Origin: Deltaproteobacteria bacterium
GTDB lineage: Bacteria; Myxococcota_C; UBA6777
DNA: 32,640 bases
Assembly (NCBI GenBank): GCA_002731275.1
Contig: PCBK01000102.1
Location: 1-32,640, forward strand
Reading direction: 5' to 3'
Positions 1,986 to 28,646 of the stretch are shown here, piece after piece. Within the stretch, counting starts at the first letter, position 1; each line of letters opens with the position of its first letter. Below the pieces are notes generated by a model. That model made no database searches. It was given only the letters and a program-made list of their open reading frames with translations, and was not told the origin of the DNA. The position numbers and the translations under genes were made by a program.

Positions 1986-3356
1986 ATGATCGTTTTAGAT
2001 AAAGTCAAACCACTGCCTGGCCCCAAAAACTTCTTTGGACTCAAAAACATCCGTGCACTCGGTCAAAAAGGAATCCTCGACGCCATGCACGACTTCTGGA
2101 AGGAGTACGGCGATCTCTTCGAAGTGCAGGTTGGTCCCAAGAAGATCGTTGTCGCTATTCATCCCGAACACGTCCGCCATATCACGATGACAAACTCCAA
2201 GAATTACGAAAAACTCGAAAGCTACGACCCTGTCCGAAAATACATCATCGGAAACGGCATCGTCACGAGTATCGGCGATCTCTGGAAACGGCAACGTCGC
2301 ATGATGGCGCCCTTTTACACCCCCAAAGGAGTACAGGATTACTCGGACATCATGCTCCGGGATACGATCGATGTCGCCGCTCGTTGGGAACGCCTCGCCA
2401 AAGAAGCTCCTGATGTCGAGATGTTCGACGAGATGGCCATGATCACAGCCTCAATCATCCTCAAAGCGGTGTTCAGCACAGAGTCAGAGGATGATATCCT
2501 CCAGATCAAAGAGGCTGTGGAGACGATGGTGAGCTACTCAGGGACGATCCAGGCAAGTGTACTCAAAGTTCCAGATTGGTTCCCGACCAAGCGCAACCAA
2601 ACCTACTGGAAAGCTCGTCAGATTACACATGACTATATCAATGGGATTCTTGATGAACGCCTCGCGATGGACGAAGCAGATTATCCAGATGATCTTCTCA
2701 GCAAGTTGATCACCCTCGAAGATCCCGAGACCGGCGAACGTATGTCTCGTGAACTTCTCTTGGACGAAGCGTTGACCAACTTCTTTGCGGGATATGAAAC
2801 ATCAGCCCGTACAATGAGTTATGCTTGGTATGCGCTCTCAACATTCCCAGAGGTCAAGGCCAAACTCCACGAAGAGCTCGACAGTGTCCTCGGTGATGAA
2901 CCTCCAACACTCGACACACTCAAAAAGCTCCCTTACACCCTCCGCGTGATCAAAGAAACACTTCGCCTTTACTCACCAGCTCCGGCCTACGCCAAAGATG
3001 TCGTGGATGATGATGTCATCGATGGATATCGCATTGAAAAAGGCACAATGGTGATGTTGTTCCCCTACCTCACACACAGACACCCTGACTTTTGGGAAGA
3101 TCCCCTACGCTTTGACCCCGATCGTCACTCACCTGAAGCCACCAAGGCACGTCACTCACAAGCATACCACCCGTTCGGGGCAGGCGCACGGATCTGTATT
3201 GGCAACCACTTCTCCCTCCTCGAAACACATATCATCCTCGCGATCTTAGGCAAACAATTCGACCCACAATTACCTGCCGACTACAAAGCCAACTTTGTCA
3301 TGCAAGGGATGCTTCACATCACCAATGGACTCCCCATGAAGATCGTCAAACGCTAA
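1986..3356 (+). CDS. Cytochrome P450 monooxygenase
   Basis: This is a full-length soluble bacterial P450 of 456 residues. The I-helix oxygen-activation motif AGYET is at residues 268-272, the K-helix ExxR is at E324-R327 (KETLR), and the heme-binding loop FGAGARICIG carries the thiolate ligand Cys404. There is no N-terminal membrane anchor; the chain opens with a Pro-rich hinge-like segment (PLPGPK). GGAGG at 1974-1978 gives a strong ribosome-binding site seven bases before the ATG. It forms an operon with the TetR gene. No ferredoxin or reductase gene lies nearby, so electrons must come from elsewhere. A fatty acid, lipid or xenobiotic substrate is plausible but cannot be read from the sequence. 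Confidence 0.95.
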   Translation: MIVLDKVKPLPGPKNFFGLKNIRALGQKGILDAMHDFWKEYGDLFEVQVGPKKIVVAIHPEHVRHITMTNSKNYEKLESYDPVRKYIIGNGIVTSIGDLWKRQRRMMAPFYTPKGVQDYSDIMLRDTIDVAARWERLAKEAPDVEMFDEMAMITASIILKAVFSTESEDDILQIKEAVETMVSYSGTIQASVLKVPDWFPTKRNQTYWKARQITHDYINGILDERLAMDEADYPDDLLSKLITLEDPETGERMSRELLLDEALTNFFAGYETSARTMSYAWYALSTFPEVKAKLHEELDSVLGDEPPTLDTLKKLPYTLRVIKETLRLYSPAPAYAKDVVDDDVIDGYRIEKGTMVMLFPYLTHRHPDFWEDPLRFDPDRHSPEATKARHSQAYHPFGAGARICIGNHFSLLETHIILAILGKQFDPQLPADYKANFVMQGMLHITNGLPMKIVKR

Positions 3357-3411
3357 GCACCCAGCACTCACGCCAAAACCTTGCCCACCAAGCCCCCACC
3401 CTCATCGATAC

Positions 3412-3599
3412 ACCCACACAACATCCAGGCAAGCGGAGCGCGCCAGTAGCAAACCCACACAACATCCAGGCAAGCGGAGCGCGGCAGCAGCGCTCGTAGA
3501 GCGCAAAACAGACGATACGGAGTATCGTGGGGTCTGGGGGCAACGACCCCAGGCGGGTGTGGGTGGCAAACCCACAATGCCAAGCGAAGCGCGGCAGTA
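3412..3599. repeat. 41-bp direct repeat with a degenerate third copy
   Basis: Two nearly identical copies begin at 3412 and 3453 (period 41); each contains ACATCCAGGCAAGCGGAGCG. A shortened, diverged copy lies at 3570-3599, after the hairpin cluster. These open a gene-free stretch (3357-3772) that is repeat-derived throughout. Open frames across it translate as repeated low-complexity peptide and are not credible genes. Confidence 0.8.
3490..3550. other. Three consecutive hairpins
   Basis: Three inverted repeats follow one another: GCGCTC-GTA-GAGCGC (3490-3504), ACGATAC-GGA-GTATCGT (3512-3528) and GGGGTC-N10-GACCCC (3529-3550). All arms pair perfectly. No T-run follows on either strand, so a standard intrinsic terminator is not indicated. 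They are embedded between copies of the 41-bp repeat and are probably part of the same repetitive element. Confidence 0.65.
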
Positions 3600-3604
3600 T
3601 GTAA

Positions 3605-3724
3605 GGGCGAGTGGCAACTCGCCCGTCCATAGCGAGTGGCAACTCGCCCGTCCATAGCAAGTGGCAACTCGCCCGTCTATAGCGAGCGGAAACTCGCCCG
3701 TCCATAGCAAGTGGAAACTTGCCC
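3605..3724. repeat. 25-bp tandem array of hairpin units
   Basis: ACTCGCCC-like cores recur at exact 25-bp steps at 3617, 3642, 3667, 3692 and 3717 (the last reads ACTTGCCC). Each is preceded by its complement across a 4-nt loop, giving hairpins such as GGGCGAGT-GGCA-ACTCGCCC at 3605-3624. Substitutions between units keep pairing in a minus-strand transcript: two become G-U wobbles and the last unit changed both arms. The array lies about 50 bp past the stop codon of the minus-strand transglycosylase gene and would fall in its 3' untranslated region. Confidence 0.85.
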
Positions 3725-3772
3725 AAAAAAAGAAAGGGGATGGTTTGTGTTGTCGGGAGGTAGGGAGGGGGT

Positions 3773-4846
3773 TTAGCGGATACGAGCGCGGACTTTGGCA
3801 GCAGCTTCTTGTGCGGTGACGCGGCCGTCGCCATTGGTGTCGAGGCCACTGTTTTGTCTGTAAGCTGCGGTTCCTTGGCGGAACAATGTGTGAGAGGGTC
3901 CTCTACCAACTGCAGCGGGCCAGAGAACAGCCATGTACGCATCTTCGACAGTGTTCATTTTACCGGCGTAGGGTTCGAGGTATTTTTCGACATAATCGAG
4001 TTGTTGCATGGGGGACATTTGTGCAAGCTCAGAAGTCGATGTTCCGAGTCCTCTCGCCGTGCTTGGCATGAACTGAATCAAACCTGTCGCACCAGATGTT
4101 CTGTTGCGCTCGGAGGGGCTAAATGAACCACCTGTTTCGAAGCTCATGACAGCCATCAAGTGAGTGGGGTCCATGCCCAAACGACCGGCAATTTCAGCGA
4201 CCTTTGCGCGGAACTCAGGTGTCGTATTTTCCGAACCAATGACATCACCAACCTGTCCAGCCGCAGCGGGATTTGTGGGGGCTGCAGGCGCTGAAGGATC
4301 TGCAGGAGTGGCAGGAGCTGAAGGATCTGCGGGATTAGCTGGTGCTGATGGATTGGCTGGTGTCGCCGGAGTCGCTGGTGTGATCTGACCAGATTGAACT
4401 CTTTCGAGTTGACCAAGAGTTTCTGGACCGACAAGACCATCAACTTTAATGCCGGTACGCTCTTGGAACTCCATGACCGCGCGGCGTGTACGGCGACCAA
4501 AGACGCCGTCTGTTTCGAGAGGAGGATTGATACCACTTTGATTGAGCAGCGTTTGCAGCTCACGAACCTGATCGCCTGATTGACCACGTTTGACCAAACC
4601 ACCACCTTGAACAGTGGCCGTCATGTTTGGTGCAGCCTCTTGGAGTGATTGTGTTGAAGTGGTTTGGGGAGCCGCAGCACTGGCGCTGGCTGCGAGCTGT
4701 GCGTCTTTACCTGGATCGAGGACGCGGCTGGTGCCTTGCGCGTTGACGAACCCATTGGACATATCTTGGAGGTTCTGCATTCTGGGCTGGGAGAGTGCGT
4801 TTTGGCGAGCTTGTTCGAAAATGGTTTGATTGGGTGCGATTTTCAT
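3773..4846 (-). CDS. Leaderless lytic transglycosylase with PG-binding domain and EF-hand
   Basis: The 357-residue protein has a peptidoglycan-binding domain near residues 85-150 (KRGQSGDQVRELQTLLN, then FGRRTRRAVMEFQ), a Pro/Ala repeat linker, an SLT-type lytic transglycosylase domain with likely catalytic Glu237 in SFETGG and the motif GATGLIQFMPSTA, and a C-terminal canonical EF-hand loop DTNGDGRVTAQE (336-347). It should cleave the MurNAc-GlcNAc bond of peptidoglycan. The start at 4846 is chosen because GAGGAAG lies just upstream. There is no hydrophobic signal peptide or lipobox, so its route to the wall is unclear; a second leaderless hydrolase lies at 28679-30283. The stop is followed by the hairpin repeat array. 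Calcium control through the EF-hand is inference. Confidence 0.88.
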   Translation of the reverse strand: MKIAPNQTIFEQARQNALSQPRMQNLQDMSNGFVNAQGTSRVLDPGKDAQLAASASAAAPQTTSTQSLQEAAPNMTATVQGGGLVKRGQSGDQVRELQTLLNQSGINPPLETDGVFGRRTRRAVMEFQERTGIKVDGLVGPETLGQLERVQSGQITPATPATPANPSAPANPADPSAPATPADPSAPAAPTNPAAAGQVGDVIGSENTTPEFRAKVAEIAGRLGMDPTHLMAVMSFETGGSFSPSERNRTSGATGLIQFMPSTARGLGTSTSELAQMSPMQQLDYVEKYLEPYAGKMNTVEDAYMAVLWPAAVGRGPSHTLFRQGTAAYRQNSGLDTNGDGRVTAQEAAAKVRARIR

Positions 4847-4938
4847 AGTCTCTTCCTCTCTATACCGTAAGGCCGACATTCGGCTTGTTGATTGGTTCGT
4901 ACTATGATTATCGGTCTCCCTCTCAACTTGTTGCGAAG

Positions 4939-4951
4939 AAATTACACAAAA
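4939..4951. promoter_or_regulatory. Shared 13-bp motif upstream of the transglycosylase
   Basis: AAATTACACAAAA occurs 93 bp upstream of the transglycosylase start. The identical 13-mer is found upstream of the other leaderless peptidoglycan hydrolase (30430-30442). A regulator-binding site common to the two genes is possible but untested; the motif is AT-rich. Confidence 0.3.
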
Positions 4952-4983
4952 TTACAATCCCCGACATTTTTTGTGATCTTTTT

Positions 4984-5027
4984 GGGAGAATCACGAGGCC
5001 CCACTAGGGAGAATTACAAGGCCCCAC
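4984..5027. repeat. Two-copy 21-bp direct repeat at the end of the Lon-like gene
   Basis: Copies at 4984-5004 and 5007-5027 (period 23) differ at two positions; both contain GGGAGAAT and end GGCCCCAC. The second copy includes the stop codon and last codons of the Lon-like gene, so the first looks like a duplicate of the gene's tail. No hairpin is formed. Confidence 0.75.
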
Positions 5028-7458
5028 GGCTCTCTTTGCTGATCTGGTAGAAGTGGTCGAGGCGCTTTTGCACAAGCTGAAACAAACTCCCCTCAGTCCA
5101 CACACCATCATCGTCACGATCACCAGCTTCAATGTTCATCAGGATCTCAATACCTTCAAAGACGTGCTTGATCGCCCAGATATGGAATTGACCGGCTTCA
5201 ACAGCTTCGATGACTTCGTCACGCAGCATCAAATGTTCGACGTTTGGTTCTGGGATGATCACACCTTGTCGACCTGTCAGGCCGCGTTTTTTACAGATCT
5301 TGAACATCCCTTCGATCTTCTCGTTGACACCGCCAATGGGTTGGACCAGTCCTTGTTGGTTGATCGAACCAGTCACGGCGATCCCTTGGTGGATGGGAAC
5401 CTCAGCGAGACTCGACAGCAAGGCAAAGAATTCGGCACAAGAAGCAGAGTCCCCTTCGATTTCACCGTAATTTTGCTCAAATGTGATGCTCGCATTAAAA
5501 GCCAGTGGATGCTCTTGTGCACAGATACCACCGAGAAGACCGACGAGAATCATCGTCCCCTTGTCGTGGATTTCACCGGACAGCTGTGCTTCACGATCGA
5601 TATTCATCACACCACGGACACCTGCATACGTTCGCGCCGTGATCTTGGCAGGCACACCAAATTGATGATCAAGCGCGATGTACACGAGCAAACCATTCAA
5701 TTGGCCGACAACGTCACCGTCCGTATCGATCATCATAAAGCCCTTCTCGATCGACTCCAACACAGTCTGTTCTAGAGACTCATGTCGATAATCGCGAAAG
5801 GAGAGGGCTTTCTGGACATCAGCCAGCTCGATAAAGTCGTGTCCTTCTTTGCGTGCCCAGTAGTCAGCCTCTGTGAGCAAATCAATGCCTGAGACGATAG
5901 ATGTTGAGAGCTTATTTTGTGACCCCGCTTCTCGCGAAGATTCTTCGACGAGCGCGGCGAGACCTTCCTTGGAGACCTTCAACAGGTTTTCTTCTTCACA
6001 TAGTCTTTGGAGAAAGTGACAGTAGGCGCTCTCATGTGCGGTGGTGCGAGATAACCACGTCTCAAACTCCGCCTTGACTTTGAACACACGAGAGAAATCT
6101 TCGTCTTCGTGCATCAACATGTAATAGGACTCAGCACTACCGACCAATACAATCTTGAGCCGCAGAGGAGTCTCAAGAGGTCGAATCATCCCACGAATAC
6201 GTGGTTTTTCAGGGGAAGATGTGGCGTCATGGATGCGGATCTCTTTGTGTCTGAGCGCTTGCTTGAGTGAGTCCCAGACATGTGGACGGCGGATCAAATC
6301 GGACGCCTGCAAGATCAAGAATCCACCATTGGCACGGTGCAATGAACCCGCTCTTACCAACATGTGGTCTGTCCCAAGCCCCCCCATCCCAGTGCTGCCG
6401 TATTCTTCCTGGTATTCAAGGTAACCAAAAAGATGCTCTGCTGTCGGTTCCTTCTCGACGATGACAGGGACACCGTCCTCTTTGAACTCTTTGAGAATAT
6501 TCACTCTATATGGGAGCGGGAGCGGCGCTTCTTCGCCATTTTCGGCGGACTCTTCGTTATCATCGAGCAAAAGCTCGCGATAATCATTCATCAGGTATTC
6601 GTGCATACCGTCGATATAAGAGAGGATCTCTTCGCCTGTCTCTTGAAGGGTCGTCTTGAGAGCTTCAAACACAGTATCGACGAGTCCCTGAATGGCCCAG
6701 CGTTCGAGACGAGTCAAAGACTCCTGTCGTTCGCGCTCTTGTTCTCGTTGGGCCTTGATCAGGGGTGCAGCTTCGTTTTGGAAGGCAGAGATCTGCTCCT
6801 GCAACGTCTCCTGTTGCTCCAAGGACAACTCTTCGAAGACATCGGGTTCGATAGGCTCACCATCGATCAACGGTACAACGAGAAACTGTTCCCCTTCGCG
6901 CTCCAGACCGAGACCGTGTTTGTTGGCGATCTCTTCCATGCGAGAGAACACGTCGACAGCTTTCTCTTCAGCACGTTCGGAGAGCTTGGAGGCCTTTTCG
7001 GTGAAGGCTTCGTCGAACAACGTGCGAAAGATGGACTTGGCGAGTCCACGAATGGCGTGCTCGATCTCCGTCTCGATCATCGACGCCATGCCGTTGGGGA
7101 CGAGGATAGGACGAGGACAATCGGGATCCTTGAAGTTGTAGACAAACAAGATGTCTTGTGGACGAGCGAGATCTGCGGCTTTCTCTTTCAAGAGTTTGAG
7201 GACAGTGCTGGTTTTGCCTGCTCCCCCAGGTCCCATCACGAAGATGTTGTAGCCTTTTCCTTGCACATTCAAACCAAAATCGATCGCTGACAACGCGCGA
7301 GATTGAGCAAGCGGTGTAAACAATTGCTCCTCGGTTTCCCCAATCATCACGCTCTCAGGCAGACTTGAAGGCTTACAACGTCGTTTCAAATTCTCGACTG
7401 ATATAACGAGCTCAGACGCTTTTGCCACAGCCACTCCCTTTCCGGATCCTAACTTCAT
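5014..7458 (-). CDS. Lon-like ATP-dependent protease (AAA plus Lon Ser-Lys domain)
   Basis: The 814-residue form carries an AAA P-loop GPGGAGKT at residues 76-83 and a C-terminal Lon protease domain. In that domain GDSAS supplies the likely catalytic Ser671 and VNEKIEG supplies Lys714; the 43-residue spacing equals that in E. coli Lon (S679-K722). A long helical, Glu-rich insertion (about 160-330) and a LonB-type lid region lie between. The N-terminal LAN substrate domain of classical Lon is missing, which fits the AAA_32/LonB-like family (relatives of E. coli YcbZ). It should unfold and degrade cytosolic proteins. The Met at 7458 is preferred over the longest frame (7557) because AAAGAGG lies ten bases upstream and the extra N-terminus is not family-like. 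It precedes the transglycosylase on the same strand by about 170 bp. Confidence 0.92.
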   Translation of the reverse strand: MKLGSGKGVAVAKASELVISVENLKRRCKPSSLPESVMIGETEEQLFTPLAQSRALSAIDFGLNVQGKGYNIFVMGPGGAGKTSTVLKLLKEKAADLARPQDILFVYNFKDPDCPRPILVPNGMASMIETEIEHAIRGLAKSIFRTLFDEAFTEKASKLSERAEEKAVDVFSRMEEIANKHGLGLEREGEQFLVVPLIDGEPIEPDVFEELSLEQQETLQEQISAFQNEAAPLIKAQREQERERQESLTRLERWAIQGLVDTVFEALKTTLQETGEEILSYIDGMHEYLMNDYRELLLDDNEESAENGEEAPLPLPYRVNILKEFKEDGVPVIVEKEPTAEHLFGYLEYQEEYGSTGMGGLGTDHMLVRAGSLHRANGGFLILQASDLIRRPHVWDSLKQALRHKEIRIHDATSSPEKPRIRGMIRPLETPLRLKIVLVGSAESYYMLMHEDEDFSRVFKVKAEFETWLSRTTAHESAYCHFLQRLCEEENLLKVSKEGLAALVEESSREAGSQNKLSTSIVSGIDLLTEADYWARKEGHDFIELADVQKALSFRDYRHESLEQTVLESIEKGFMMIDTDGDVVGQLNGLLVYIALDHQFGVPAKITARTYAGVRGVMNIDREAQLSGEIHDKGTMILVGLLGGICAQEHPLAFNASITFEQNYGEIEGDSASCAEFFALLSSLAEVPIHQGIAVTGSINQQGLVQPIGGVNEKIEGMFKICKKRGLTGRQGVIIPEPNVEHLMLRDEVIEAVEAGQFHIWAIKHVFEGIEILMNIEAGDRDDDGVWTEGSLFQLVQKRLDHFYQISKESRGAL

Positions 7459-7627
7459 ATTTTTGGAACCTCTTTCAACAAGACAAATCACTTCAGGCTC
7501 TTCCAAAGCCTTACCTGGCCTTTTTTTCTGCAGCCATAAACTCCGCCCGTCTATCACACAACCGGCAAAACCACAACATCTTATTTGGTATCACACGACA
7601 TTGTGTCCGAGCATTTTAGGCAGGGTC

Positions 7628-8287
7628 TTAGGAGGAAGAGGTGTTGGATTGGTCACGTAGGGCACGGAGTATACGCGGCTGGATACTCATTTCGATGAAC
7701 CGTTCTTGGAGAGCATCTTTTTCATCGTCTGGCAGATCTCCATTGCTCCCAAAGGCAGCCACACGTTGCTGTACGGCTTCGTAAAGGGAGATCGCGACAG
7801 CGACAGAGACATTAAAACTCTGCGCAAAACCGAGCATCGGGATCTTGAAGCAACCATCACACGCGTCCACCATCTCCTGCGAGATTCCTTCTTTCTCGTT
7901 GCCAAATGCCAGGACAACTTTCCCTGTCAAATCCAACGACTGAAGGGGCACAGAGGCCTCACCAAGATGACTCGCCCAGATCTGGTATCCATCCGCACGA
8001 AGCTGCTCGATCGCTTCTTTTGTGTGTTGGTACCGATGGATATCCACCCACTTTTGCGAGCCACGTGCGATACTCCGCTTGGGCCGAAATCTCTTCTCAG
8101 AAGACGAGATCACATGCACATCTTGCACACCAAAGGCATCGCAAGAACGCAAGATCGCGCTCTCATTATGACCTTTGTGGATGGATTCGACGAGAACGGT
8201 CAACTGGCGGGTGCGATGGGAGAGGACTTCCTCGATACGTTCGACTCGCTGAGGAAGTAGTAATTCGGAAAGTTCGATGTCAGTCAT
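7628..8287 (-). CDS. trmH: tRNA (guanosine-18-2'-O-)methyltransferase, SpoU/TrmH family
   Basis: The 219-residue protein shows the three SPOUT motifs in order: motif 1 NESAILRSCDAFGV (about 41-54), motif 2 VVLAFGNEKEGIS (about 125-137) and motif 3 IPMLGFAQSFNVSVAVAISLYE, which form the trefoil-knot AdoMet site. Motif 1 should contain the catalytic Arg. Length and the C-terminal extension after motif 3 match TrmH (E. coli, 229 residues), which methylates G18 in the tRNA D-loop; other SpoU enzymes acting on rRNA or other tRNA sites cannot be excluded. It starts 18 bp after the stop codon of the upstream cysteine-rich lipoprotein gene, so co-transcription is likely although the functions appear unrelated. 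Confidence 0.88.
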   Translation of the reverse strand: MTDIELSELLLPQRVERIEEVLSHRTRQLTVLVESIHKGHNESAILRSCDAFGVQDVHVISSSEKRFRPKRSIARGSQKWVDIHRYQHTKEAIEQLRADGYQIWASHLGEASVPLQSLDLTGKVVLAFGNEKEGISQEMVDACDGCFKIPMLGFAQSFNVSVAVAISLYEAVQQRVAAFGSNGDLPDDEKDALQERFIEMSIQPRILRALRDQSNTSSS

Positions 8288-8305
8288 CGATAGATGATTC
8301 TCCGC

Positions 8306-9502
8306 TCAGGGAGCTTTGGGGATACAAACTTGCTCGTTGTTTGTCAGCTTACCACACTCTGGTGTAGGCGCTGAACAATCTTCGGGTTTGGTACACTTCG
8401 TCAGGCAAGTTTTGATCGTCGTAGTGGTCGAGACACACTCTGTACCGGTGGGACATTGGTCAGCGCGTGCATCTGTACAGTCACGCAAACAGATACCTGA
8501 CGTTTCTCCTTGCTTGACGACGAAGCAGTAATGACCTGCGGCGCATTTTTCGGCTTCTGTGGCATCAGATTTGGTGCTACATACTTCACCGAGCTTCACA
8601 GTCCCGACGTTGCCATCGACACAGAAGTTGGACTGACAGAATTTAGGCCACTGACAGTCTTCACTCTTGGTACAAGTTTTGGTACAAACTTTGTCGGTGC
8701 TACCGAGGCCTTTTTCGACACATCCGTATCCATCAACACAATCGACTTTTTTGCCATCGATGGTTCCACATGCCTGACCAGGACCGGCTTTATCGCCTGC
8801 TTTTCCACAGGTCTTTTTGCCGTTGGTTTGTTCGACACAGGACTCACCTGTGAGACAGTCTTCGTCTTTGGTACAAGTTTGTGAACAGACACCTTCGACG
8901 GGTCCAGTCAAAACACACTCAAGTCCAGTGTAACAGGGGATCGTCAGCTTGCCACCGGGTGTATCGTACTGACACTTTTCTCCGGTCGGTACACAGTACC
9001 CACCTGAACACACACGACCATCAGCACAGTCTTTGTTTTCGGTGCATGTTTTCCAGCACTTACTCGCGTTATCCGTCCATTTGACACAAGTCAACTCGGA
9101 GTTGCACTTTTTGGGGTTACAATCTTCGCCGATGCCCTGTCCTGGACCTTCATCAACGGGACCAGCGTCTTCTTTTTGGGCGGTCTGACAAGCACCTGTT
9201 GTGGTGTTGCACTCTTCGCCTTTATCACAGTCAAAGTCCGTCGTACACTTGGACTTACATTCGCTCTTATCGCAGATCAAGCCATCAACACATCCTGGCT
9301 CTTTGCCTTCTTCACAAGAATCGCCAAGCTCGCCACGTGCGACACATTTTTCCTCGACACAGGCTTGACCGTCACTACAATCGAGCGTACTCGCGCACTC
9401 TGCCTCTTTCTTCTCGGGACCACATGCGACCATGGGTCCAACAGAGAGCCAACCTCCAACGGCCAAAAGCGCCGCGATCATATGCCAATTTTGTTTTATC
9501 AT
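8306..9502 (-). CDS. Cysteine-rich repeat lipoprotein
   Basis: The 398-residue protein has an N-terminal hydrophobic segment ending at MVAC, so a lipidated Cys27 is likely. The mature chain is a string of small modules with regular cysteines of the form C-x5-DC-x(4-5)-C-x4-C, for example TTDFDCDKGEECNTTTGAC, resembling Dickkopf/EGF-like disulfide-rich modules common in Myxococcota surface proteins. There is no enzymatic motif. The start at 9502 has GGAGG eight bases upstream; the longer frame to 9619 would cross the promoter. A surface-exposed binding or structural role is inferred from architecture only. Confidence 0.8.
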   Translation of the reverse strand: MIKQNWHMIAALLAVGGWLSVGPMVACGPEKKEAECASTLDCSDGQACVEEKCVARGELGDSCEEGKEPGCVDGLICDKSECKSKCTTDFDCDKGEECNTTTGACQTAQKEDAGPVDEGPGQGIGEDCNPKKCNSELTCVKWTDNASKCWKTCTENKDCADGRVCSGGYCVPTGEKCQYDTPGGKLTIPCYTGLECVLTGPVEGVCSQTCTKDEDCLTGESCVEQTNGKKTCGKAGDKAGPGQACGTIDGKKVDCVDGYGCVEKGLGSTDKVCTKTCTKSEDCQWPKFCQSNFCVDGNVGTVKLGEVCSTKSDATEAEKCAAGHYCFVVKQGETSGICLRDCTDARADQCPTGTECVSTTTTIKTCLTKCTKPEDCSAPTPECGKLTNNEQVCIPKAP

Positions 9503-9550
9503 TACGTATTCCTCCAAACATACTTGCAATCGAGTGGAAACAGACAGGGC

Positions 9551-9579
9551 AATATTCCACATCATCAGGCACCGGGCAA
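9551..9579 (-). promoter_or_regulatory. Candidate promoter of the cysteine-rich lipoprotein gene
   Basis: On the minus strand, TTGCCC (9574-9579) and AATATT (9551-9556) are 17 bp apart, placing a start site near 9544 and a leader of about 40 nt. The match is moderate. It lies in the 228-bp divergent region shared with the DUF2520 gene. Confidence 0.3.
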
Positions 9580-9730
9580 GTTTTTTTGACCGACACCCCT
9601 TTTCATTGATACCAATCACATATCATGCACACATTTCTTTTTGAAGACAAGCCCCTTCACATCGCACCTCACAATCATCAACTTGCATCCAAAAGAAGCA
9701 CACATTCACTCAACACACCGGAGAGAAAGC

Positions 9731-10630
9731 TTGCACACACACCCTACACTTTGGCTCATCGGCGCAGGTCGTCTCGGCAGCGCACTTTGCCACTCTCTGT
9801 ACACACAAGGTTGGTCCCCAACAGGTATCTGGAACCGAAGTTCCCGAGACTTTTCACATCTCCCCTGCCATACCTCCACAGGCCCACACCCACCACAAGC
9901 TCTCTACGAGGCCGATGTGGTCCTCTTGACTGTGGCAGATGACGCGATCCAAAACACCTTCTCGCGCCTTCTCCAGAAATGGTCCACAAAAGCAAAGACG
10001 ATCTTTCTTCACTGTTCGGGGAGGCTGTCCTCAGACACGCTCTCACATGAAACCCACAGGACACTCTCCGTTGGTGGGTTCCACCCCCTACAAGCGATCA
10101 CAGACATCCAAAAGGCCCAACTCTTTGAGGACATTGCTGTTGGTATTGATGGTGAGCCAGATGCGTTTCAGCAAGCACAGGCTATCGTGGAGCTGCTCGG
10201 AGGCGAAGCATTTTCGCTTGAGGGTGTCGACAAGGCCCTGTACCACGCAGCAGCCGTCACAGCATCCAATTACCTCGTCACCCTCGCATCTGTCGCACAA
10301 GGACTGCTCAAAGACGCCGGTCTCCAAGGAGAAGGTCTACCGCTGCTCCTCCCTTTGATGAAGATCGCACTTCACAACATCGAAAGAAGAGGACTTCCAG
10401 AAGCCCTCACAGGACCACTCGCCCGAGCAGACAACGCGACGATAGCTGCACACTTACAGGCGCTAGAGAGTGTCAGTCCTGTACACAAAGATCTGTACGT
10501 CAAGCTCGCACAACACACCCTCCCACTCGCCACACAGCTCCAAATACAAAGAGAAGGAAACGATGAAGGATTGGACGCCATCAAAAAGATGCTCTCCACA
10601 AGCGAGGAGTCATCACGAAAACGAAAGTGA
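9731..10630 (+). CDS. Rossmann-fold/DUF2520 oxidoreductase-like protein
   Basis: The N-terminus holds a dinucleotide-binding GxGxxG (LIGAGRLGSAL, residues 9-19) of the 6-phosphogluconate/pyrroline-carboxylate dehydrogenase type. It continues with DVVLLTVADDAI and HCSGRLSSDTL, then GGFHPLQAI, which is typical of the Rossmann-like plus DUF2520 family. The all-helical C-terminal half starts around GVDKALYHAAAVTASNYLV. Substrate and reaction are not established for the family. I place the start at a TTG (299 residues) because GGAG lies seven bases before it and the fold begins within ten residues; the open frame extends to a TTG at 9641 but adds 30 residues without family resemblance. The next gene, EndoQ-UvrD, is 163 bp downstream with its own promoter. 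Confidence 0.82.
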   Translation: MHTHPTLWLIGAGRLGSALCHSLYTQGWSPTGIWNRSSRDFSHLPCHTSTGPHPPQALYEADVVLLTVADDAIQNTFSRLLQKWSTKAKTIFLHCSGRLSSDTLSHETHRTLSVGGFHPLQAITDIQKAQLFEDIAVGIDGEPDAFQQAQAIVELLGGEAFSLEGVDKALYHAAAVTASNYLVTLASVAQGLLKDAGLQGEGLPLLLPLMKIALHNIERRGLPEALTGPLARADNATIAAHLQALESVSPVHKDLYVKLAQHTLPLATQLQIQREGNDEGLDAIKKMLSTSEESSRKRK

Positions 10631-10743: not shown

Positions 10744-10793
10744 ACCCCTTTTACGTAGGGCATCTTACACAAAACCACCCGCAGGAGCGTTGG

Positions 10794-13700
10794 TTGTATT
10801 TTTTTGTTGATCTTCATGTACATTCAAAACATTCTCGCGCGACCAGCCGAGACCTCGATCTCGAACACCTGAGTATTTGGGCTCGTCGCAAGGGGATTCA
10901 TGTTGTGGGAACGGGCGACTTTACCCATCCAACATGGCGTGCTGAGCTGCAGAGTAAACTCGTCCCAGCGGAAGATGGGCTCTTTAGACTCACACCAGAG
11001 ATCGAAGCGACGCTCTTCGAAAAAGATCCGACTCTCCAAGATGTCCCACCAACACGTTTCTTTTTGACCGCCGAAGTCAACAATATCTTCCGCACCCAAG
11101 ACGGGTTGCACAAGATCCAAAGCATCCTCACTGTCCCTTCCTTTGAAATCGCCTCGCAGCTTTGTGAACAGCTCGCACAACATGGTGATTTGTTCGCAGA
11201 TGGTCGCCCAACGCTCGATCTGAGCGGACAACAACTCCTCGAATACGTCATCAGCCACCCACAGAGCTATCTCATCCCCTCCCATATTTGGAGCCCGTGG
11301 TTCTCTCTCTTTAGCCCACGAGGCGGTGTTGACAATATTCAAGATTGCTTTGGAGATTTGAGCACACACATATTCGCGTTGGACTCAGGTATATCAGCCG
11401 ATCCACTGATGAGTCGCAGGCTCTCGTCGCTCGATGCGTACACACTCGTCGCAGCCTCTGATGCTCACTCTCCATCGCGATTGGGTCGTAAGGTCAACCG
11501 CTTTGAAACGACGCTCTCCTACAAGGCGATCTTCGACGCGATCAAAGAAGGTCCAGGACACCACTTTCTTGGAACATACGAGACCCACCCAGCCGCCGCA
11601 AAATACTACTACGATGGACATCGAGCTTGTAGAGAGTGTTACGAACCACAAGAGACCCTTCACAGGAAATACATCTGCGCGGCCTGCAAAAAGCCCGTCA
11701 CACTCGGTGTCCTTCACCAAGTAGAGCAGAGAGCTGATCGCACACTGACACAGGCAGAACAACTCGCTCCTCCCTTCCGATATATCCTCCCCCTCGAAGA
11801 TCTTCTCGCCGAGTTACTCGAGCTCAGCCCAAAAGCCAAGAAAGTACAGCGACACTATTTTCAGTTGATCTACCGATATGGCCCAGAGCTTCCACTGCTC
11901 ATGGAACGCTCACTCGATGACATCGACTACAACGAACTTCCACTCTTTCGAGAAGCGCTCGCGAGATTGCGCCAGGGTGATATCCACATCACCCCCGGAT
12001 TTGATGGTCGCCCTGGCCTCATCGAGATCTTCCATCAAGATGAGACCAAGCAGGCACAGCAAACCCTCTTCCCCCATTCGGCGATCCCCCACACAGCCAG
12101 ACAGATGACGTTGTTTGACTTCCTCGCCCCTCCTGCTCCAGCGCCTGCACCACACATCCCGCAGCTCGATCTTTTCACGCCTCCAACGCCTCCACCACAA
12201 ACATCACTCCCCCTCCCTCCACCAGAGGAAACAACGCCCACACCTTCGGAGAAGCCGTCTCCTGTGCCCCCAAGTCCGTCATCTCCTATCCCAGAGCCGC
12301 CACAGACAGAGGAAGAGTCCTGGACTCCATCGACAGACTCCAAGCCACTCTTTCCAAGTCAACGAAACGCCCGGCAAATACGCAAGGCCTTCGCGAAGTA
12401 CGTGCTGCCACCAGCCAAACAACTGCTGTCTCCACTCAACATCGAGCAGCGCGCCCCTGTCAAACATTGGGGGTCTCCTATGCTGATCGCGTCGGGTCCT
12501 GGGACAGGAAAGACCTATACTCTCACGACACGTATCGCCTATCTCACGGCCAGCCGGCGACTCCATCCAACACACATCCTGGCATTCACGTCGACCAATA
12601 AGTCCGCACGACAAATGGCAGAACGGCTCGATGAGCTCGTTGGATTGTATAGAGGGGTGACCATTGGGACCTTCCACCGCTTTTGCCTCAATCTCCTCCA
12701 GGACGAAGAGTACGCCTATAGGTTGATCGGTGAAGCAGAGCGCATGATCCTGATGAGAGAACTCTCTCAACATCAACTGTCCTCGACGCAACAACGGCAG
12801 TACCTCGACAAAATATCCAAATACAAACAAAAGAGCCTCCTGCCCGACCAACTCGAAGACGAAGACGACGAACAATTTGTGAAGCTCTACCAGGCATACG
12901 AGCGCACACTCCACCAGGAAGAGCTGTACGATCTCGAAGACCTCTTGCTGCAATCCATCCAATTGCTCGAACAAGACCCCTCTTTATGTCATCAACTTCA
13001 ACTGCGCTTTCGTTCGATCCACGTAGATGATTACCAAGACATCAACGAGGCACAATACAGGCTGCTTCGACTGCTCGTATCTCCTGAGAATGACCTGTGC
13101 GTCGCAGGTGACGCAGATCAAAGTATCTTCGGGTTTCGAGGCGGCGCCCCCACATACTTGCGACACTTCGAACAAGATTTCTCCTTCGCAGGACGACCAG
13201 CCCGACGGTTCACACTGTGGCGAAATTACCGTTCTCCCGAATGTGTCATCGACATATCCCAACAAGTGATCGCGTCTCAATCCAACCAGCACAGGATCAT
13301 CCAAACATCGATCTTTTCGGGACTCTCTAACATTACCTATCTTCACACAGAAGATGAACACACAGAAGCGCGCTACATCGCCGAACAGATCCAACAACTC
13401 ATCTCTCCATCCACCGAAGACGAGGTGAGCACAGAAACTTCTTATACACTCGCAGACATCGCGATCTTGTATTCATCAAACCAGCAACTCCCCCCCATCC
13501 AAAAAGAACTCAAAAGACAGGGCATCCCCTACCGTATCGCGCAACCGATCAGTATCCCAGAGAAGCTCCCTGAACTTCGACTCTTTCTCGCTCTGCTGCG
13601 TTATTTATCTCCTCCTCACGGAGATTGGCTCGCCCTGTACGAATTGTTTTCCACGTGGCCCCATCTCAGCGCGATGACCTTCCCACAAATTCAGGCCTTG

Positions 13701-14354
13701 CGCAGCCAACACCCTCATCTGACACCAGATGATTGTCTCGCACATGCCCCAGAGTGGTTCGCCCTTGGCCCCAAACTCTCCCAAGAAGCCAAAAAACTAC
13801 GAGAGCTTATCCGTTCAATGAGGGCGAGTATCCAGACAGCCTCAGCGAAAGAGTTCTTGGAGCAACACCTCTCTCAAATGGAGGATATGCTCGACGAACG
13901 TTGGGTGCCAGGGAAGGAGACGCGCATTCTGCTCTATGAACGTGCCGCTGCGACCCCCTTCTTTTCGGACTTTTTACAGCATCTCTTACTCGAAGAAGAT
14001 CCGGATCCCTACATCCAACCAGCCGCACGTCTCTCTCTTCGAAGCCTGACCGCCGCCAAAGGGACCGAGTATCCAGTGGTCTTCTTACCCGGATGCGAAG
14101 AGTCTTTTATCCCTCCTTCCGATTCCCCCGAAGAGGAAGCTGAACACAGACGGCTCTTTTACGTGGGCATGACACGCACAAAGTCGAAGCTCTACCTGAG
14201 TCATGTCAAACACAGACAGCTCGATGGAGAACGTCAATCCCGTTCACCCTCTCGTTATATCCAGGAGGTATACGATCTCCTAGATACTCCCGATGAGGCC
14301 GAAGAGAACAGGCAGCAAGACATCTTCTCAATCATTCGTACAGAAGAACCATAG
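10794..14354 (+). CDS. EndoQ (PHP nuclease)-UvrD/Rep helicase fusion
   Basis: Residues 1 to about 415 match the TIGR00375/endonuclease Q family: the PHP metal site begins DLHVHSKHSRATSRDLDLE, continues GTGDFTHP, and a four-Cys zinc site follows (CRECYE ... CAACKKP). EndoQ nicks DNA 5' of deaminated bases. A Pro-rich linker (about 420-520) contains QQTLF (422-426), QMTLF (437-441) and QLDLF (457-461), all resembling the beta-clamp-binding QxxLF motif. Residues about 545-1186 form an SF1A helicase: Walker A GPGTGKT (568-574), motif II DDYQD, motif III GDADQSIFGFRGG, motif IV WRNYRSPE, motif V AAKGTEYPVVFLPG and motif VI FYVGMTRTKSKLYL. The TTG start has AGGAG six bases upstream. A role coupling nicking at deaminated bases to unwinding, perhaps at the replication clamp, is inference. 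Confidence 0.88.
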   Translation: MYFFVDLHVHSKHSRATSRDLDLEHLSIWARRKGIHVVGTGDFTHPTWRAELQSKLVPAEDGLFRLTPEIEATLFEKDPTLQDVPPTRFFLTAEVNNIFRTQDGLHKIQSILTVPSFEIASQLCEQLAQHGDLFADGRPTLDLSGQQLLEYVISHPQSYLIPSHIWSPWFSLFSPRGGVDNIQDCFGDLSTHIFALDSGISADPLMSRRLSSLDAYTLVAASDAHSPSRLGRKVNRFETTLSYKAIFDAIKEGPGHHFLGTYETHPAAAKYYYDGHRACRECYEPQETLHRKYICAACKKPVTLGVLHQVEQRADRTLTQAEQLAPPFRYILPLEDLLAELLELSPKAKKVQRHYFQLIYRYGPELPLLMERSLDDIDYNELPLFREALARLRQGDIHITPGFDGRPGLIEIFHQDETKQAQQTLFPHSAIPHTARQMTLFDFLAPPAPAPAPHIPQLDLFTPPTPPPQTSLPLPPPEETTPTPSEKPSPVPPSPSSPIPEPPQTEEESWTPSTDSKPLFPSQRNARQIRKAFAKYVLPPAKQLLSPLNIEQRAPVKHWGSPMLIASGPGTGKTYTLTTRIAYLTASRRLHPTHILAFTSTNKSARQMAERLDELVGLYRGVTIGTFHRFCLNLLQDEEYAYRLIGEAERMILMRELSQHQLSSTQQRQYLDKISKYKQKSLLPDQLEDEDDEQFVKLYQAYERTLHQEELYDLEDLLLQSIQLLEQDPSLCHQLQLRFRSIHVDDYQDINEAQYRLLRLLVSPENDLCVAGDADQSIFGFRGGAPTYLRHFEQDFSFAGRPARRFTLWRNYRSPECVIDISQQVIASQSNQHRIIQTSIFSGLSNITYLHTEDEHTEARYIAEQIQQLISPSTEDEVSTETSYTLADIAILYSSNQQLPPIQKELKRQGIPYRIAQPISIPEKLPELRLFLALLRYLSPPHGDWLALYELFSTWPHLSAMTFPQIQALRSQHPHLTPDDCLAHAPEWFALGPKLSQEAKKLRELIRSMRASIQTASAKEFLEQHLSQMEDMLDERWVPGKETRILLYERAAATPFFSDFLQHLLLEEDPDPYIQPAARLSLRSLTAAKGTEYPVVFLPGCEESFIPPSDSPEEEAEHRRLFYVGMTRTKSKLYLSHVKHRQLDGERQSRSPSRYIQEVYDLLDTPDEAEENRQQDIFSIIRTEEP

Positions 14355-26177: not shown

Positions 26178-28646
26178 ATGAGACGCATTCTTTGGTTCCT
26201 TTTCTCACTCGCTCTCCTCCCTCTCATGGTAGTCTCTTGCTACCTCGATGTCTCTATCCAATGTGACGACGCCGCTGGCTTATCGTGCGCTACAGGTTTC
26301 GTTTGTCAGGACAATCGATGTGTTTGCCCGACCGAACAGACCGCCTGCCCAGGAACACAAGCGAACACAAAAGAGTGTGTCAACCTCAACAGCAACCCCT
26401 CTCACTGCGGAAGCTGTGGGGCGCTGTGTCAGTCTGGTCTCGTTTGCAACGCAGGAAAGTGCTCGACAAGCTGCTCCGACGGCGGAACCGTTTGTGACGG
26501 TGCATGTGTCTCTGACTTTCAGACAAACAACGAACACTGCGGAAAATGCGGAAACAAATGTGAAGGTGGTAAACAGTGTGTGAGCGGGACATGTGAATGT
26601 ACAGGAACAAAACCTGGTACATGCGATAACGTCTGTGTCGATCTCGCGAATGACACCAAACACTGCGGTGCTTGCGGAAAAGCATGCTCCGCCGGTCAAG
26701 CATGTGTCAACGGAAACTGCGGAACATGTGATGAGAGTGTCTTTTTGCGGTGTGATGGGACGTGCATCTCGACACCTGATCTAAAACTCAAGCACTGCGG
26801 CAAATGTAACACTGCCTGCACAGGCACAGATGTAGCCTGTTGTGGCGACAAAGACACACAAGCATGCCTCTCACTCACGACGGACGACAATTGCGGCGCC
26901 TGTGGCAACAAATGTAGCGCAGGGAGCAAATGTGTGGACAAAAAGTGTGCTTGTGATAATGGCTTCACAGCGTGCGCAGGAGACGGTTGTGTCGACGTAA
27001 AAAAAGATGCAAAGCACTGCGGTGCGTGTGGTGTAGCGTGCGGCTCCTCCGAAGATTGTGTCGACGGAAAATGTTGCTCTAAGGGTTCACTCAACTGTGG
27101 TGGTGTCTGCATCGATGTCCAGACCTCGCTGAGTCACTGTGGTGACTGCAATACCCCCTGTGATAAAGCCTGCGTATCCGGCTCATGTAAAGCTTGTACA
27201 GATGACACTTCCTGCGCTGGAAAGTACACCTGCAACACAGGCACAGGCGCTTGTGAGTGTGCAAAGGGTTGCGACTGGGCGATCCAATCGAGTGGAGAGA
27301 AAGGCTCAAGCAAAGCCAATGGCATCGTCGTGGATGACAAAAACAACAGTTATATCGTCGGGACATTCAGCGGTAATGGGATCTTTGGCAGTCAAAAGAT
27401 CGAGAGCAGAAAGACCTCAAAGGATATCTTCTTGCTCAAACTGAACGCAGGTGGAGACGTTGTCTGGGTCAAGACCTGGGGCGGCGATGCCCTGGACGAA
27501 GGCAAAGCCATTGCGATCAACAAAGCCAACGACACAATCGCAATCACAGGTTCATTTGCCTCAGCAGAGCTCACACTCAAAGGCACCACCTACACAAACC
27601 AAGGCAACCAAGATATCTTTGTGATGACTGTGAAAGCCAGCGACGGAAGTGTTATCTGGTCCTCCTCTCCACTCAAAGGCGCTGGAAATGACTACGCAAA
27701 TGGTATCGCCTTCAACTCCAATGGTGATATCATCATCACAGGCTCTCACAAAGAAGCTGTTGAGTTTGGCGGAACGTCTAAACTTCCAGCAAACACAAAC
27801 CGCTCACTCTATCTCGCCAAATATCTCAAAGACATGGCGACAAACTGGAGTCCATCGTGGGCACAGTCCGCTGGCATCGACTCAGAAGGGCACGCTGTCG
27901 CGATCGGGAGCAATGACTCTATCTATGTGACAGGCTCTTTTTCTGAAAACTTCGATCAAAATGGTGTCAAATTGACCTCCACCGGTTCAAGTGACTTGTT
28001 TGTCGCAAAGTTCAACAATGTCGGAGAAGTACAGTGGGCAGAAGGTAGCCTGGGAACAGCGACAGGGCTTACCATCGCGGTCAAGGCAGGTTCAACAGAT
28101 CAAGTCTTTTTGGCTGGAAATTATCAGGGCGGTGTCGGTTTAGGTATCAACGCAAGCTCCAAGTTGAATCTCAACGGGCCAACAGGCGCTTTCGGTGCGT
28201 TTGTCGCCAAGCTCGACGGGGACAAAGGGACTTTTACATGGAAGATGACCCCCAAAAACGATGACAGCGCGAGTACAGGCAGTTCATCATTCACAGGACT
28301 CGTTTTGTACGGAAACGATGAGATTGCGGTCACAGGCTACTTCAACAAAACAGTCAAATTCTCAGACGGTATTACGCTCAAAGCCGGGACAGCAGGCGAC
28401 GAAGGAGACAGAAGTTTTATCGCGAACTTCAAGGACGGAAGCTCCCCTTCGGCTTGGCAGGCAGCCAAGCAAGCGACCTCGACAGATCAAGGTGCAAGCC
28501 GTGGGCATGGTATCGCCGCAGATAGCCAACAAAGCCTCTACTCAGCAGGATACTTTTCGAAGAATATCACCTTCCCGATCAGTGGAGCTGGTTACTCGGC
28601 GCTTGGCAGTGAAGATTCGTTTGTTTGGAAAGACACTCTCCCCTGA
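26178..28646 (+). CDS. Stig1-like cysteine-rich lipoprotein with beta-propeller domain
   Basis: The 822-residue protein has a signal sequence with lipobox MVVSC (Cys21). Residues about 30-370 are repeated modules of the type HCGxCGxxCxxGxxCxxGxC, the Stig1-like pattern expanded in Myxococcota. Residues about 375-822 are glycine/asparagine-rich repeats such as KANGIVVDDKNNSYIVGTFSG and KGAGNDYANGIAFNSNGDIIITGSH, which fit SBBP-type beta-propeller blades. It is predicted to be a surface-anchored, disulfide-rich adhesive or binding protein. It follows the PEGA gene by 72 bp on the same strand and probably shares its transcript. Alternative database labels for such proteins are often misleading, so no enzyme activity is claimed. 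Confidence 0.85.
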   Translation: MRRILWFLFSLALLPLMVVSCYLDVSIQCDDAAGLSCATGFVCQDNRCVCPTEQTACPGTQANTKECVNLNSNPSHCGSCGALCQSGLVCNAGKCSTSCSDGGTVCDGACVSDFQTNNEHCGKCGNKCEGGKQCVSGTCECTGTKPGTCDNVCVDLANDTKHCGACGKACSAGQACVNGNCGTCDESVFLRCDGTCISTPDLKLKHCGKCNTACTGTDVACCGDKDTQACLSLTTDDNCGACGNKCSAGSKCVDKKCACDNGFTACAGDGCVDVKKDAKHCGACGVACGSSEDCVDGKCCSKGSLNCGGVCIDVQTSLSHCGDCNTPCDKACVSGSCKACTDDTSCAGKYTCNTGTGACECAKGCDWAIQSSGEKGSSKANGIVVDDKNNSYIVGTFSGNGIFGSQKIESRKTSKDIFLLKLNAGGDVVWVKTWGGDALDEGKAIAINKANDTIAITGSFASAELTLKGTTYTNQGNQDIFVMTVKASDGSVIWSSSPLKGAGNDYANGIAFNSNGDIIITGSHKEAVEFGGTSKLPANTNRSLYLAKYLKDMATNWSPSWAQSAGIDSEGHAVAIGSNDSIYVTGSFSENFDQNGVKLTSTGSSDLFVAKFNNVGEVQWAEGSLGTATGLTIAVKAGSTDQVFLAGNYQGGVGLGINASSKLNLNGPTGAFGAFVAKLDGDKGTFTWKMTPKNDDSASTGSSSFTGLVLYGNDEIAVTGYFNKTVKFSDGITLKAGTAGDEGDRSFIANFKDGSSPSAWQAAKQATSTDQGASRGHGIAADSQQSLYSAGYFSKNITFPISGAGYSALGSEDSFVWKDTLP

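Follow-up and report, generated by a model that had tools for sequence, protein, structure and literature searches.

The window analysed here (the whole stretch of 32,640 nucleotides, contig PCBK01000102.1 of a Deltaproteobacteria bacterium) carries a gene in which an endonuclease Q (EndoQ) is joined to a UvrD helicase, with three peptides resembling sliding-clamp ligands in between. The question raised by this locus is whether its product is, as the initial annotation proposed, a single-polypeptide machine that docks on the clamp, nicks DNA at deaminated bases and starts unwinding at the nick, or whether only some of these functions have been kept.

Architecture and distribution of the EndoQ-UvrD fusion

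The fusion gene occupies positions 10794..14354 of the forward strand (10794-14351 without the stop) and consists of 1186 codons plus stop, with a TTG start preceded by AGGAG at 10783-10787. Its EndoQ module (residues 1-413; 10794..12032, forward strand) comprises a PHP domain, a Zn-binding domain and a C-terminal EndoQ part. It matched PfuEndoQ in phmmer (E 8e-36), and its predicted model was superposed on 5zb8 (PfuEndoQ) with Z 44.6 and rmsd 3.3 over 391 aligned residues, so that both comparisons recovered the three-domain EndoQ fold. A Pro-rich linker follows (residues 414-544; 12033..12425, forward strand), of which residues 428-521 were predicted to be disordered, and then a PcrA/UvrD-type SF1 helicase module (residues 545-1160; 12426..14273, forward strand) that matched PF00580 at 1.3e-63 and TIGR01073 at 3.5e-104 and whose predicted model resembled UvrD 4c2t with Z 48.7. 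Both domain calls of the initial annotation therefore hold. The AlphaFold2 model of the whole protein (36-sequence alignment, mean pLDDT 83, pTM 0.60) showed two confident bodies, with pLDDT below 50 at residues 428-521 and in the tail at 1171-1186.

Reviews describe EndoQ as a mainly archaeal enzyme found in 'a few bacteria' (PMC8438529). Among the sampled bacterial genomes it was present in 96 of 386, approximately a quarter of a kinship-weighted sample, and many of these proteins were fusions of approximately 950-1400 residues; because the fusions were sampled by pattern and kinship, the frequencies are only indicative. Carriers of the fusion include Desulfatitalea, Geobacter, Desulfovibrio, Moorella, Propionispora, Micromonospora, Salinispora, Treponema, Planctomycetota, KSB1 and Bacteroidales. 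No paper on an EndoQ-UvrD fusion was found in the open-licence literature searched, and no plasmid-borne relatives were detected at E below 1e-60. The fusion is a widespread but apparently undescribed bacterial architecture.

The family of the window was defined as five genomes (G000-G004), namely that of the window, two of genus g3 (L036 and L037) and two of genus g2 (L038 and L039), and EndoQ-UvrD orthologues were present in all five. They formed one group in the EndoQ tree (SH-aLRT 97) and in the two-module tree (100/100). In the EndoQ tree this group was nested within the region rich in fusions, and solo EndoQs lay toward the opposite side. Synteny around the locus is seen in genus g3, where a DUF2520 gene and two more neighbours are shared. 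In the window, the fusion gene is adjoined by a block at 5014-10627 encoding a LonB-like protein (5014-7557), a 437-residue protein without assignment (8306-9619) and a DUF2520/Rossmann protein (9641-10627), and this block is partly kept beside the orthologue in L036 and L037. Farther along, positions 26178-28646 encode a protein with a MXAN_6577-like Cys-rich domain and LipL53-like beta-propeller repeats.

Clamp-binding-like motifs at the junction and the C-terminus

The published consensus for clamp-binding peptides is QL[S/D]LF or QxxLF (PMC12309361). Three such peptides, QQTLF (residues 422-426; 12057-12071), QMTLF (437-441; 12102-12116) and QLDLF (457-461; 12162-12176), all on the forward strand, were located exactly where the initial annotation had placed them, the third being of ideal consensus. 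A fourth clamp-motif-like site, absent from that annotation, is QQDIF in the disordered C-terminal tail (residues 1174-1178; 14313..14327, forward strand). It lines up with the clamp motif at the C-terminus of other fusions; the column of Q1174 is nearly invariant among 36 fusions. Motif 1 occupies the position of the junction motif of other fusions, which is also that of the C-terminal motif of solo EndoQ. Motifs 2 and 3 lie inside the low-pLDDT segment (428-521) and motif 1 at the falling edge of pLDDT, and all three are predicted to be accessible. In composition-preserving shuffles of the linker (n = 200,000), three QxxLF motifs arose once within its 134 residues and never within its first 60.

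We then considered 69 dereplicated EndoQ-UvrD fusions (<70% identity). QxxLF occurred 28 times in their linkers (0.58 expected) and 41 times in their last 30 residues (1.0 expected), against 0 and 3 occurrences, respectively, of the reversed motif. It occurred once in the EndoQ cores (3.1 expected) and nine times in the helicase cores (9.2 expected). Clamp motifs are thus enriched only at the EndoQ/UvrD junction and the extreme C-terminus, with no enrichment in either core. With the broader pattern Q..[LIM][FL], a motif was present in the last 16 residues of 51 of the 69 fusions, within 25 residues of the EndoQ end in 26, at both places in 21 and at neither in 13, several of which end in near-variants (e.g., HLSLF and QLSFF). 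Half of the solo EndoQs (12/24) have a terminal motif of this kind, whereas none was found in 13 tails of ordinary PcrA/UvrD. Chance or composition bias as the origin of the motifs was ruled out by the shuffles, the reversed-motif control and the region controls, and the PcrA/UvrD tails likewise ruled out clamp docking as a general property of that helicase family. Three junction motifs were not found in any sampled fusion outside the family, where the maximum was two (L064).

Within the family, the array is most completely preserved in genus g3, in which QQDLF, QLMLF and QFDLF are located in linkers of 308-371 residues. All three motifs are thus kept at approximately 41% identity to the window in the EndoQ part. 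Genus g2 has T/S-LSLF at the first site, with Q replaced, and QLHLF at the third, and the middle motif is absent. The initial annotation had named the absence of the motifs from close orthologues as the observation that would speak against it; its reading stands fully in g3 and by half in g2, where two sites persist, one of them without its Q, and motif 2 is gone. Its expectation that the motifs be conserved while the linker diverges was also borne out, as dN/dS between L036 and L037 was 0.07 over the three-motif segment and 0.35 in the rest of the linker. These selection estimates were taken from the sister genus because the data contain no close relative of the window. The rest of the L036 and L037 linkers includes near-identical tandem repeats (PSSDIRQSDAS and EASPLSAARNS) that differ between the two genomes.

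The host genome encodes one DnaN ending in IMPMRL, whose pocket segments and C-terminus, judged by eye, are like those of known clamps. Its DnaE carries QFSLF at position 948 of the open frame, so that another client of this canonical clamp has a motif of the same type. Archaeal EndoQ binds PCNA at 55 nM via its C-terminal PIP box, and PCNA stimulates the enzyme; the same 2016 paper had already pointed out beta-clamp motifs in EndoQ homologues of bacteria (PMC4858679). The window protein would likewise be tethered by a peptide after the EndoQ module, but the archaeal system differs in having a PIP box, a trimeric PCNA, a single motif and no helicase. It is conceivable that the QxxLF peptides have a docking partner other than the clamp or arose as a side effect of the Pro/Gln richness of the linker, given that the motif is short, that motif 2 is not universal in the family and that the status of clamp ligand is a prediction. 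We regard this as the least probable of the readings considered here, because the peptides match the published consensus, their enrichment is confined to the junction and the C-terminus with no reversed motif in linkers, and both the host DnaE motif and the EndoQ-PCNA precedent point to the clamp. Given this concentration of motifs, their absence from the 13 PcrA/UvrD tails, the QFSLF of the host DnaE and the array shared with the sister genus, binding of the window protein to the clamp is very likely. The tether, which conservation, position, predicted disorder and controls strongly support, is the best-supported part of our interpretation.

The suggestion that the three sites contact several protomers of a single clamp does not apply literally to all three, because bacterial clamps offer two identical pockets (PMC12309361), and a dimer cannot hold three motifs at once. 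The affinities of two QxxLF peptides for one clamp were approximately 20-fold apart in the same study. The array would more plausibly raise the local probability of docking or leave a site for exchange.

Substituted catalytic residues in both modules

In PfuEndoQ, E76, H84 and H139 coordinate an essential Zn, and each of the substitutions E76A, H84A and H139A abolishes activity (reviewed in PMC8307549). At the position of His84, the window has a Gln codon, CAA (codon 109; 11118..11120, forward strand), in an ungapped KI[HQ] alignment, although this position is His in 127 of 127 complete homologues outside the family. Of the three Zn ligands, the window therefore retains two (E94 and H164). We scored seven PHP sites (H8, H10, E76, H84, H139, D193 and H195 in PfuEndoQ numbering). 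All seven were intact in the 127 complete non-family homologues, while each of the five family genomes breaks at least one catalytic PHP residue. H109Q is the only break in the window, in which H8, H10, E94, H164, D223 and H225 are kept, the last two within an intact Asp-Ala-His at codons 223-225 (11460..11468, forward strand; Pfu D193/H195). D223 is replaced by Asn in the four other family genomes, with H109R and H225Y in addition in L036/L037, no further break in L038, and H225R in L039. The same change, D193N, is carried by the chain of structure 7k31. The residue losses are thus not uniform: genus g2 keeps H109, and the window keeps D223/H225. A grouping of g2 with g3, by which D223N would have a single origin, was neither rejected nor favoured (p-AU 0.113). 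The base-pocket residues (Pfu H139, G169 and S171) are present in the window as H164, G199 and S201, the last being replaced by Met in L036/L037.

Of 45 columns invariant elsewhere, 7 are broken in the window, 12 in L036, 3 in L038 and 5 in L039, whereas a leave-one-out test on 95 other sequences, including long-branch rows, gave a maximum of 2. A long-branch artefact was ruled out as the source of the active-site loss, as the equally long branches L049, L050, L074 and L077 keep all seven sites. A search of G000-G004 for a second EndoQ was negative, which speaks against compensation by another intact copy. All family genomes are draft assemblies in which single-base errors are possible, though the losses recur across separate assemblies.

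The helicase module has changed as well. Codon 746 is GAT (13029..13031, forward strand), so that Asp replaces the catalytic Glu of motif II (Asp745-Asp746). This residue is Glu in 65 of 65 other fusions and Asp in the window, L036 and L037. The window shares with PcrA/UvrD (SF1A) the fold and most helicase motifs, including the Walker A Lys, Gln776 of motif III, Arg813 of motif IV and Arg1128 of motif VI, but differs from them in its motif II (DD instead of DE) and in F600S, H1086T and E1118H, three other changes at otherwise invariant positions. With Asp in place of the catalytic motif II Glu, the proposed unwinding from the nick is uncertain.

An active protein, bound to the clamp, nicking 5' of deaminated bases and unwinding from the nick, would have to tolerate both Gln109 and Asp746. 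The clamp motifs, the six intact PHP sites, the base pocket and the retained helicase residues listed above are all compatible with such activity. Set against them are the invariance of the His84 position in 127 of 127 other homologues and of the motif II Glu in 65 of 65 other fusions, the inactivity of the H84A enzyme, and the loss of the D193/H195 equivalents in the sister genera, including the D193N also seen in 7k31. We consider an active machine unlikely in the window. Nicking by the window protein is doubtful, because its His84 equivalent is Gln and all family members break catalytic PHP residues, and the nuclease of this family is, as judged from sequence, probably inactive. Gln can sometimes ligate Zn, so that H109Q may weaken rather than abolish cleavage. 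Because the defining catalytic residue is replaced, we did not class the window protein as an active endonuclease Q, though it is homologous to one. PfuEndoQ, TkoEndoQ and Bacillus pumilus EndoQ are like it in fold, Zn-binding cysteines, base pocket and a clamp/PIP motif just after the module; they differ in lacking its fused helicase and its Gln for His84, and in having one motif instead of three. Fusions of Thermodesulfobacteriota, Bacillota, Actinomycetota, Planctomycetota and others have the same domain order and QxxLF at the junction and/or the C-terminus, but those examined outside the family keep the PHP active site and the motif II Glu, unlike the window. The nick-and-unwind model fits these intact fusions better than the window protein.

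Selection on the family and a putative role at the clamp

The substitutions could also reflect neutral drift toward a pseudogene in a family that is losing EndoQ-UvrD. Otherwise invariant residues are indeed broken in both modules, and the helicase part of the L038 orthologue shows a frame break. Nevertheless, the fusion frame is open over 1186-1381 codons in several genera, synteny is kept, and dN/dS between L036 and L037 was 0.18 for EndoQ and 0.12 for the helicase, in addition to the low value over the motif array. Purifying selection on the protein is strong in the sister genus g3 (dN/dS 0.07-0.18), and gene decay is accordingly a very unlikely explanation, if marginally less so than a non-clamp partner. 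In L038 (G001; 2090-2845 and 2668-5913), the C-terminal part of the helicase is read in a different frame; this orthologue is either frame-broken or affected by a draft-assembly error.

We consider it moderately likely that the window encodes a clamp-tethered EndoQ-UvrD whose nuclease is probably dead and which works on DnaN as a lesion reader or a remodeller. In the fusions generally, one chain combines the EndoQ module for lesion recognition with a PcrA/UvrD helicase and would be tethered to DnaN by QxxLF peptides, in most lineages by one peptide at the junction, one at the C-terminus, or both. The other lineages would follow the nick-and-unwind scheme, in which the fusion rides on DnaN while EndoQ flips U, hypoxanthine or an AP site out of the helix and cuts the strand on the 5' side of the lesion. 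The helicase, with the polarity known from its biochemistry, would then track 3'-5' on the template strand and displace the lesion-bearing strand. The direction of displacement is that in which a clamp-bound polymerase would extend the new 3'-OH, and the two steps may be coupled. In the family of the window, the junction peptide appears to have been expanded to three copies along a long disordered linker, and one or two peptides would therefore always be free to bind or re-bind the two-pocket clamp. The nuclease step has most likely been lost, with Gln at the position of a Zn ligand, while the base-pocket residues are kept; the window protein would most likely recognise deaminated bases or abasic sites at the clamp and leave them uncut. 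It may remodel or flag the lesion site for hand-over to other enzymes, for instance the three UDG-superfamily proteins encoded in this genome. Tentatively, and with slightly less than even confidence, we further propose that selection dropped EndoQ cutting, probably weakened the helicase, and kept and multiplied the docking peptides, giving a non-cutting lesion reader or traffic controller riding on DnaN.

The frequency of EndoQ in the sampled bacteria, often with a helicase and clamp peptides, leads to the prediction that many phyla have a clamp-coupled machine for deamination repair. The family of the window may represent a natural separation-of-function experiment in which docking was kept and catalysis lost. 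If confirmed, it would mean that the parts of EndoQ that read lesions and dock on the clamp are of use even when the enzyme does not cut. The PHP domains of some DnaE polymerases are likewise non-catalytic. PF11799, the little-finger domain of Y-family polymerases, had no match in the window's own genome (94.65% complete), and three UDG-superfamily matches were present there (L175-L177), two of them approximately 21 kb apart on one contig.
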